Part shown: positions 3,338 to 6,227 of the stretch, in pieces
Numbering within the stretch: position 1 is the stretch's first letter
Layout: the number at the start of each line of letters is the position of its first letter
From: Nitrospirota bacterium
GTDB lineage: Bacteria; Nitrospirota; Nitrospiria; Nitrospirales; Nitrospiraceae
Assembly: GCA_023248295.1 (NCBI GenBank)
Contig: JAHFEU010000005.1
Location: 1-36,937, forward strand
Length of the DNA: 36,937 bases
Direction: 5' to 3'
Translations under genes and position numbers: made by a program
The notes under the pieces: generated by a model
Databases searched by the model: none
What the model was told of the DNA's origin: nothing
Seen by the model: only the letters and a program-made list of their open reading frames with translations

Positions 3338-3515
3338 TGAACTCCTCCTTCAAATAGTAAGGCAGATCCGCAGAGCATCGAAACGACGTGTGCGTCTGAG
3401 CGACTTGGGCGCATTATACAACTGCGCGGGCGGAAAATCATCCAGGCCCCCAGCCGCTCCTCTCAATGCGGGACAGATAATCTTACTTTGGCCTTCGTCA
3501 AGGTGGGGAGTGGAC

Positions 3516-3630
3516 GGGGTGGCCCGGCTAATCCCCCGTGCTCGCGCATCGTGCACATGTGGCCGCGTCATTTGTCGTTCGTGAAGCGTATCTCGTCGGA
3601 CGCTTCACGAGATACGAGATACAAACGACG
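3516..3630 (+). repeat. composite dispersed repeat, copy 2
   Basis: ggggtggcccggctaatcccccgtgctcgcgcatcgtgcac plus gtgaagcgtatctcgtcggacgcttcacgagatacgagatacaaacgacg. Confidence 0.8.
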
Positions 3631-3715: not shown

Positions 3716-4150
3716 ATGACAAGGGTCCGGTCTGGCTTTTCATCCGCCGCGTGTTGGCTCAGCGCTGTGCTGGTGGGCGGCCTGGTTCACGTCGCCGCGG
3801 CAGGCGCGGGCGAGCCCGTCGTGGCGCAGGTGGGGGCCGATGGCGTGCAGCATGCGACGATCACGTTAGACAGCTACTCGTACACCCCGGATTACCTGGT
3901 GGTCCAAGCCGGCAAGGCTGTCGAGTTGAAGCTGACCAGCGTCACCTTCATCACGCCCCATAACTTCCTTCTCACTGACCCCGCCGCCGGGTTCACGGTG
4001 GAGCAGGAAGTGAGGGCCGGCAAAACCCTGACGGTCCGTTTCACGCCTACTCAGACGGGCGTTTTCATTTATTACTGCGATAAGAAACTGCTGTTTATTG
4101 CGAGCCACCGGGAAAAGGGGATGGAAGGGCGGCTCGACGTCCGGCAGTGA
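3716..4150 (+). CDS. cupredoxin-like exported protein
   Basis: signal peptide; ITLDSYSYTPDYLVVQAGKAVELKLTS...PHNF...TGVFIYYCDK. Confidence 0.75.
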   Translation: MTRVRSGFSSAACWLSAVLVGGLVHVAAAGAGEPVVAQVGADGVQHATITLDSYSYTPDYLVVQAGKAVELKLTSVTFITPHNFLLTDPAAGFTVEQEVRAGKTLTVRFTPTQTGVFIYYCDKKLLFIASHREKGMEGRLDVRQ

Positions 4151-5199
4151 CCCTCTCTCCCCATAGGGCTTTGCTCAAGCGTAGGCTGCTGCGCGACCTC
4201 CTCAAACAAGTCTCCCGCTTGTTCTACACGACGCTGGTCGTCGTGCCACGATCGGTCCGGGATCAAGTCAGCTTGTCCTATCTCTTTGCCAGGGCGGCGG
4301 ACACGATTGCCGACACGGATCTGATCGACCGGCCGCAACGCCTGCAGTTCCTCCGTCAGTTCAAGGGCCAGTTCGCCGACGATCAGGTCGGCTGGGATGG
4401 AGTCCGCGCGATCCAGACTGTCCTGATTCCCTGCCAGACCAACTCGGCTGAGCGGATCCTGCTCGAACGCCTCGACGAGTGTTTCCGGCTCTACCTCGAC
4501 TTGTCGTCGGAGGATCGCGCGCGCGTGCGACGGCTGATGACGACGCTGACGAACGGCATGGAGATGGACCTCATGGTGTTCCCCATGGACTCGGGACGAC
4601 ACCTCACAGCCCTCAAGACGATGGCCGACCTCGACCAATACACCTATTTCGTCGCCGGCTGCGTCGGGGAGTTCTGGACCGATCTCATGTGCGGGCATCT
4701 GTCGTCACTCAAGCAGTGGAACGTCACAGAAATGGCGCGCATCGGGGTCCGGTTCGGGAAGGGCTTGCAACTCACGAACATTCTGAAAGACTTAGGGCGC
4801 GATCTGCAGCGGGGACGGTGTTATGTTCCGGAGGCGATGCTGCGGGAAGCGGGCCTCGCGCCCACCGATCTGCTGAAGAAAGACGTGCTGCCGGCATTCA
4901 GGCCGGTGTTGCAGCGGCTCGTCGCGATGGCACTGGACCACCTCGACCAGGGATGGCTGTATACCATGGCCATTCCCGGGCGAGAGACCCGTCTCCGCCT
5001 GGCCTGCATGTGGCCGATCTTGTTCGCCGGCGGTACCCTCCAGCTCGTATCCGCCTCACCGGATCTGTTGGATCCCACGGTGACGCTCAAGATTCCACGA
5101 GGGCAGGTCTATCGGATCATGGCCCTGACCACCCTCACCGGCGCCTGCAGTTCCCTCTGGACCGCCTACTGGGCCCGGCTACGGAAGCTGGTCGTCTGA
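4147..5199 (+). CDS. squalene/phytoene synthase family protein
   Basis: GTG start overlapping the upstream stop (GTGA); SRLFYTTLVVVPRSVRDQVSLSYLFARAADTIADT, ARIGVRFGKGLQLTNILKDLGRDLQRGRCYVP. Confidence 0.88.
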   Translation: MTLSPHRALLKRRLLRDLLKQVSRLFYTTLVVVPRSVRDQVSLSYLFARAADTIADTDLIDRPQRLQFLRQFKGQFADDQVGWDGVRAIQTVLIPCQTNSAERILLERLDECFRLYLDLSSEDRARVRRLMTTLTNGMEMDLMVFPMDSGRHLTALKTMADLDQYTYFVAGCVGEFWTDLMCGHLSSLKQWNVTEMARIGVRFGKGLQLTNILKDLGRDLQRGRCYVPEAMLREAGLAPTDLLKKDVLPAFRPVLQRLVAMALDHLDQGWLYTMAIPGRETRLRLACMWPILFAGGTLQLVSASPDLLDPTVTLKIPRGQVYRIMALTTLTGACSSLWTAYWARLRKLVV

Positions 5200-5233
5200 G
5201 AAGCATACCCTTGTGCCTCGCCTCAATAATAAT

Positions 5234-5925
5234 CAGGGTATGGCAGGGCTCATCGCTCCCGCACCTCTCGGAGGGACCCTTCCGGACTCATCACCCATTG
5301 CACGCAGCCCAGCAATGGGTACCCGGCGGAACCCTTCGGAAATTCCTTCGAAGACTCAGTCAGTTTCCGCCTTCCTTCCCGACAAACTCTCGGTGGGGTG
5401 CGCGACGCGAGGAATAACGAGCGTCACGTTTGCGCACGCCGGCGAGTTGGTGAGCCGGCCGGGTCTTTCCCCCCTCCTCCGGTTAAGTCCGCTTAGAGTC
5501 CTGCCATACCCTGAAGTTTCTCTCCCGAACCTTGCGTCCTTCGGGATGGTGGAGAGCGACTTTGCAGGCGAGCCCTGCCGATGTCAGCTATACTGCTGTC
5601 CCTTTTCCAAGCGAGCGGAACTGATTCGGGTGGCATCCGTCCCGGAGAGCACTTAGCCGGAGCAGACTTTTCATACGCCCTATCCAATGCCTTGGGTGGA
5701 AGAGATGGGCATCCTTCTACCCGATCGGGGTGGCGTGGTCGTGAGCGAACTTTACCGGAGGAGCGGGGCACCCACCGAGGCTTTAGCGAGAAGGAAAACT
5801 GGAACTGACCAAGGCACCGCGGTCAGCGACCGCGGCCGCGGGAATTCCAGAAGGTTGCCGCGAGCTAAAGCCCGGAAGGGTCGCTCCGGGAGGTACGGGA
5901 GCGAAAGACCACGCCACCCCGATCG
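5234..5925 (+). ncRNA. candidate large structured RNA region (multi-hairpin, unassigned family)
   Basis: 18-bp stem 5234-5251/5496-5513 with one G-U; hairpins at 5293-5320, 5325-5371, 5398-5437, 5438-5459, 5523-5546, 5564-5578, 5694-5722; 19-bp perfect stem 5722-5740/5907-5925; no convincing CDS. Confidence 0.5.
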
Positions 5926-5948
5926 TGCCCTTCGTCGCCCAAGGCAAC

Positions 5949-6227
5949 TTACTTCTTTTGCGGCTCCAGTACCTTCTCCCCCTTCCGGAAGACCGCATAG
6001 ATGGCCTGGGAGGGACAGGCGTCGAGGCAGAGGCGGCAGGATTCCAAACAGCGTGACGCGTCAAACTTGTAGGGCGGAGTCGAGAGCCACGCGCCGGTGG
6101 GGCAGACCGGAATACACACCGCATTATGGGTGCAGCGGTCGGGATGACGGACCAGGTACTCTCGCTTCACCATCATAGGATGGACTCCTTCAAACAGCGC
6201 TTTCGAAAACATCTCCAGCATGTTCAC
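5949..6227 (-). CDS. 4Fe-4S ferredoxin-type protein
   Basis: RCTHNAVCIPVCPTGAW and RCLESCRLCLDACPSQAIY. Confidence 0.82.
   Translation of the reverse strand: MNMLEMFSKALFEGVHPMMVKREYLVRHPDRCTHNAVCIPVCPTGAWLSTPPYKFDASRCLESCRLCLDACPSQAIYAVFRKGEKVLEPQKK

Follow-up and report, generated by a model that had tools for sequence, protein, structure and literature searches.

The palindrome at positions 5233–5514 of the window (the whole 36,937-nucleotide stretch of DNA that was analysed, from contig JAHFEU010000005.1 of a Nitrospirota bacterium) probably belongs to a new family of palindromic elements, short, mobile and non-autonomous, and two repeats nested within this copy have enlarged it. Most likely, these elements have an RNA-like fold that is under selection, spread as DNA in trans, and survive past stop codons. 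The copy at 5233–5514, here called copy A, is a 282-nt palindrome in a gap of approximately 750 nt between two convergent genes, and the other side of the same gap is filled by a second palindrome, copy B (5722–5925). A search of the window's own genome with 5200–5960 gave partial matches at 64 places, and this query also matches most genomes of the window's own taxonomic family, showing that 5200–5960 is repeat DNA. Furthermore, 5253–5288, 5359–5397 and 5469–5493 are each the near reverse complement of parts of 5744–5904. Copies A and B are one dispersed element in opposite orientations. The long A–B pairing obtained when 5200–5960 was folded as one RNA is accounted for by the two being inverted copies. 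The features of the region are as follows.

4147..5199, plus strand: squalene/phytoene synthase family gene, 3′ end towards copy A (Pfam SQS_PSY, 1.2e-52).
5233..5514, minus strand (sense strand): copy A, enlarged by two nested repeats (minus-strand homology to copy B and more than 40 other copies; inverted-repeat pairs).
5233..5251, minus strand: 3′ arm, in sense orientation, of outer stem P1 of copy A (19-nt arm, partner 5496–5514).
5288..5327, unstranded: nested repeat 1, a hairpin of about 33–40 nt, acccattgc...gcaatgggt (separate own-genome matches to query 89–128).
5328..5392, minus strand: conserved module in the interior of copy A, reading GGAAGGCGGAAACTGACTGA..GGAATTTCCGAAGGGTTCC on that strand (family alignment; columns mostly invariant).
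5393..5467, unstranded: nested repeat 2, a double hairpin of about 75 nt, gtgcgcgacgc.. and gccggc..gccggc (separate own-genome matches to query 194–268).
5496..5514, minus strand: 5′ arm, in sense orientation, of outer stem P1 of copy A (partner 5233–5251).
5688..5696, plus strand: candidate extra outer arm, TGCCTTGGG, in copy B (partner 5938–5946, CCCAAGGCA, in the predicted fold of the B region).
5722..5925, plus strand: copy B, without nested repeats (match to model R1 at 5732–5915, 197.5 bits).
5722..5740, plus strand: 5′ arm of the P1 outer stem in copy B (19 perfect pairs with 5907–5925).
5949..6227, minus strand: small ferredoxin-like gene, 3′ end towards copy B (translation with Cys motifs).

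The name "ferredoxin-like" is taken from the cysteine pattern of the translation rather than from a family search. The candidate outer arm of copy B at 5938–5946 lies 3 nt from the stop codon of this gene.

An earlier sequence-only reading had proposed that 5234–5251 pairs with 5496–5513 in an 18-bp stem. That stem is present and is extended by one T-A pair, giving a 19-bp outer stem (5233–5251 with 5496–5514) that is 95% complementary. It is non-random: the predicted fold of 5225–5520 has an energy of −139.6 kcal/mol, compared to −100.9 ± 5.5 kcal/mol for dinucleotide shuffles (z = −7.1), and none of 200 shuffles folded as low. The inner arms listed in the same reading (acccattgc/gcaatgggt at 5293–5301/5312–5320, ggcggaa/ttccgcc, gtgcgcgacgc/gcgtc..gcgcac and gccggc/gccggc) are likewise all found. 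Only the outer stem and ggcggaa/ttccgcc belong to the element, and the acccattgc, gtgcgcgacgc and gccggc hairpins are the nested repeats. Both are inserts in copy A relative to copy B and more than 40 other copies, and they may be separate mobile families. Nested repeat 1 occurs alone elsewhere, and its insertion point varies among other copies of the element (L040, L050, L060). Nested repeat 2, which is missing from copy B, is dispersed by itself and reaches 99% identity in relatives (a 75-nt match in one). Two more short repeats, each with about 20 own-genome matches, were seen in the window at 3507–3556 and 3579–3630; the second is a 23-nt hairpin, and variants of the first were also found 3′ of the ferredoxin-like gene in other Nitrospira.

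The element is approximately 165–190 nt long and folds as a single rod without branches, in which 59 pairs are interrupted by invariant internal loops. Among 27 aligned insert-free copies, two-sided changes were present in 41 of the 59 pairs. A covariance model recovered 92 matches in 81 stretches. In the alignment of these 92 copies, which was fitted to the structure model and in which many of the covarying copies share ancestry, 93.0% of cells were paired compared to 72.8% when shuffled, and 49 of the 59 pairs showed two-sided changes. The covariation score was 0.493, compared to 0.160 ± 0.005 for shuffled alignments and at most 0.073 with partners slid. Because this alignment was fitted to the structure, the key test was repeated with 139 copies aligned by MAFFT without reference to structure. 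On one strand, G-U pairs outnumbered A-C mismatches by 156 to 46, with 21 of 25 informative pairs in agreement, although the nominal p-value of this test is too strong since the copies are related by descent. The excess of G-U over A-C indicates that the folding strand is plus for copy B and minus for copy A. Copy A had previously been read as a plus-strand RNA, and the single G-U pair in its stem does point that way; this is one pair in one copy, and the family evidence instead places the folding strand of copy A on the minus strand.

The sequence-only reading also saw no likeness to the conserved cores of tmRNA, RNase P RNA, SRP RNA or 6S RNA. A search of Rfam with the segment returned no match above threshold and nothing credible up to E = 10, and the element family has no match in Rfam 15. 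Conservation beyond one strain and covariation were both found on the family alignments. A conserved, covarying, RNA-like structure that is absent from Rfam is therefore supported. Hammerhead-like and group II intron-like readings of the CUGA and GGAA motifs were considered and rejected, as they had no Rfam support and the window's own genome (89% complete) contains no reverse transcriptase RVT_1.

The fold is maintained by compensatory change, including at one locus common to three species. This locus (L082, L044 and L098, of which L044 is from the window's own genome) has flanks that can be aligned on both sides. Comparisons of the three copies gave 3, 6 and 7 double changes, compared to 0.4–1.5 expected, and all of these positions still pair. 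In L098, the outer stem has been largely rewritten with pairing retained. The outer stem is the fastest-changing part of the element, yet it remains paired, and the internal loops are the most invariant parts, with the inner module flanked by freely varying tip and base helices. A further set of copies (L196–L229, from G105 and G068) has near-identical cores and very different outer stems, in which pairing is almost perfect.

Covariance model R1 gave at least 22 hits in the window's own genome. In a sample of 118 genomes of the phylum, the model had hits in 16, and these represent two families. In a degenerate pattern scan of species-level genomes, nearly all of the matches listed were in Nitrospira-type records, and the matching records, among those listed, were mostly labelled Nitrospira, Nitrospiraceae or Nitrospirae. 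The true outliers were two Patescibacteria genomes with 3 and 5 copies, which have A+T-rich outer helices and the same inner loops; 4 of 288 genomes sampled from one Patescibacteria phylum were positive. A Pyrinomonadaceae MAG holds one Nitrospira-like copy (L161), on a short contig. This is the sole copy in the 7.4-Mb genome and probably reflects a misplaced contig or binning error. At the sensitivity used, viral contigs gave no match to the core pattern, and plasmid and phage records gave no match to copy B. No description of the element family was found in the open-licence literature.

Evidence for movement comes from a sister family (G105 and G068; another family of the same phylum), as no target duplications were found in the window's own family. 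In several sister-family copies, the cores are much alike and the long outer stems end in GTAAY...RTTAC. Direct repeats of 8 bp border copies at L227 (ggagaaaa/ggagaaaa), L223 (ctttacgg/ctttacgg) and L222 (gtcctggt/gtcttggt), with weaker cases at L217, L221, L225 and L228; this count is approximate, as the repeats of L223, L225 and, in part, L228 come from reading by eye, and an automatic scan put some ends elsewhere. These 8-bp target duplications at GTAAY...RTTAC ends suggest that some sister-family copies moved as DNA. The element itself would be moved by a transposase encoded elsewhere. IS66 and Y1 searches did not find a partner transposase with matching ends: the IS66 transposase domain is absent from the window's own genome and from four of five relatives, with interrupted fragments in one sister genome only, and neither the element nor its nested repeats flank the two Y1_Tnp genes of the window's own genome.

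The main rival to this interpretation is a purely selfish DNA element, in which the palindrome serves transposition only and the arms are matched by template switching during replication. The sister-family target duplications are as expected for such an element, and an outer stem that changes fast and stays paired could be a product of arm-to-arm correction. However, this correction is strand-symmetric, so it cannot yield a 156:46 excess of G-U on one strand. Correction would also erase the internal loops, the very parts that vary least. The strand bias and the intact loops argue against a DNA-only element, which we regard as a doubtful explanation.

Placement of the element beside genes is clearly one-sided. 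In element orientation, 84 of 103 right-hand neighbours are convergent (p = 6e-11, an optimistic value given that some copies are related and that a simple script based on codon usage called the genes), and no orientation bias is seen for the left-hand neighbour. The stop codon of the convergent neighbour is mostly about 0–60 nt from the end of the element. Copies A and B both conform, each lying antisense to its gene and just past the stop codon. Insertions directly past a stop codon may survive best because they would do least harm there.

The same genes carry the element in other species. At seven other Nitrospira loci, the element lies directly 3′ of the orthologous ferredoxin-like gene, and most other genomes examined have no element at this site. 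Since the seven copies are of two forms, either an old insertion has diverged or the site has been hit repeatedly. Two candidate ortholog pairs, L181/L056 and L009/L179, were dropped, as each places different element forms at one site. Different long palindromes were also observed where another species carries the element (L145:620–860 and L108:6290–6540). Several unrelated palindromic families are attracted to, or tolerated at, element sites, and site conservation alone is therefore no proof of a single old insertion.

The proximity to stop codons raises the possibility that the element is a 3′-untranslated hairpin in the mRNA of the preceding gene, stabilising the message or slowing translation termination in the manner of REP sequences. 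Most copies do begin within this short distance of a stop codon, and REPs located no more than 15 nt from the stop codon have been reported to stall ribosomes (PMC12306157). However, the mRNA in question holds the opposite strand to the one that wobble tolerance marks as the folding strand, and we consider this explanation unlikely.

Returning to the mobile element with a selected fold, what it does in the cell we infer from its strand and placement: after insertion, it would be retained, as a structured hairpin, within transcripts that head towards the 3′ end of the gene. As a tentative guess at mechanism, the folded sense RNA could act as a structural barrier, or as a double-strand-specific processing site, that separates converging transcription. 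A bolder and rather improbable suggestion concerns the inner module, GGAAAnCnGrAACUGAC..GGAAUUyCnGAAGGnUUCC, which might be a new RNA fold or protein-binding motif common to Nitrospirota and certain Patescibacteria. In that case, the repeats would form a multi-copy family of rod RNAs that have a function, lie antisense to the 3′ ends of genes, spread as a mobile element and are used by their hosts.

Several known repeats resemble the element. ERIC (IRU) sequences of enterobacteria are dispersed, intergenic and non-coding, each being a single long imperfect palindrome of 100–200 bp whose way of moving is unknown. The likeness is in general build, by description and not by sequence, and the host groups differ; in contrast to ERIC, the element described here has strong covariation, invariant internal loops and one-sided placement at stop codons. 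BOX and RUP of pneumococcus are short repeats predicted as RNA stem-loops with modular inserts. BOX is made of repeated modules, whereas our element is a single rod in which foreign repeats are occasionally nested, and again the hosts differ. IS66-type MITEs have GTAA ends and 8-bp target duplications, which the ends and duplications of the sister family resemble, but IS66 was found only as fragments in one of six genomes searched. The many dispersed, non-coding copies typical of MITEs are present here (22 model hits and 64 partial matches in the window's own genome). The best reading is that bacterial interspersed palindromic elements, a known kind that includes ERIC, BOX and REP, gain a new family here; the likeness to these three is by description.

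REP, ERIC and BOX have been known for decades, with no agreement on whether their folds matter after insertion. The present family shows signs of constraint in covariation at the three-species locus, a strand-specific wobble bias, and loops invariant across two phyla. These signs make a post-insertion role of the fold directly testable in nitrifying bacteria.

REP, BIME and REPIN sequences, which are associated with RAYT transposases, are palindromic, extragenic and multi-copy, and are enriched just after stop codons (PMC6006769, PMC12306157). They share this placement with our element (84/103). It is conceivable that the element is of the REP/RAYT type, a single-stranded-DNA element whose folded strand is recognised by an HUH (Y1) transposase. 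A strand-specific fold that tolerates G-T/G-U wobble and REP-like siting near stop codons (PMC12306157) would both fit. However, at 165–190 nt the element is 5–10 times longer than REP hairpins, the sister family carries duplications of the DNA type, and neither a GTAG/GTGG 5′ guide with a nearby RAYT gene nor any copy at the Y1_Tnp loci was found. We consider this origin very unlikely.

Lastly, the sequence-only reading treated copy A as domain A of one large, multi-domain, plus-strand structured RNA; the two palindromes do share a single gap of 750 nt, and the plus-strand fold is good, but we give this almost no credence because A and B are distinct copies, in inverted orientation, of a repeat that is found singly elsewhere, including lone copies beside the ferredoxin-like gene in other species and beside the squalene synthase gene in L076. 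What looks convincingly like a "large structured RNA" in a single genome may thus be several nested repeats.

The flanks of about 119 copies were also profiled. Both are pyrimidine-rich and G-poor on the sense strand, and A is preferred at the two positions that immediately precede the left arm. No fixed sense-strand promoter motif and no fixed tetranucleotide are visible in this profile. An outer inverted repeat common to different palindrome families seemed likely on inspection by eye but was rejected, as the motif count was only 8 of 163 right flanks and 0 left flanks. Immediately to the left of about 15 copies there is a second hairpin of the AAAGGCGACAGG..CCTGTCGCCTTT type with a T-rich end, as at L076:1960–2030, and similar hairpins occur in G005 and G024, which are of the same genus.
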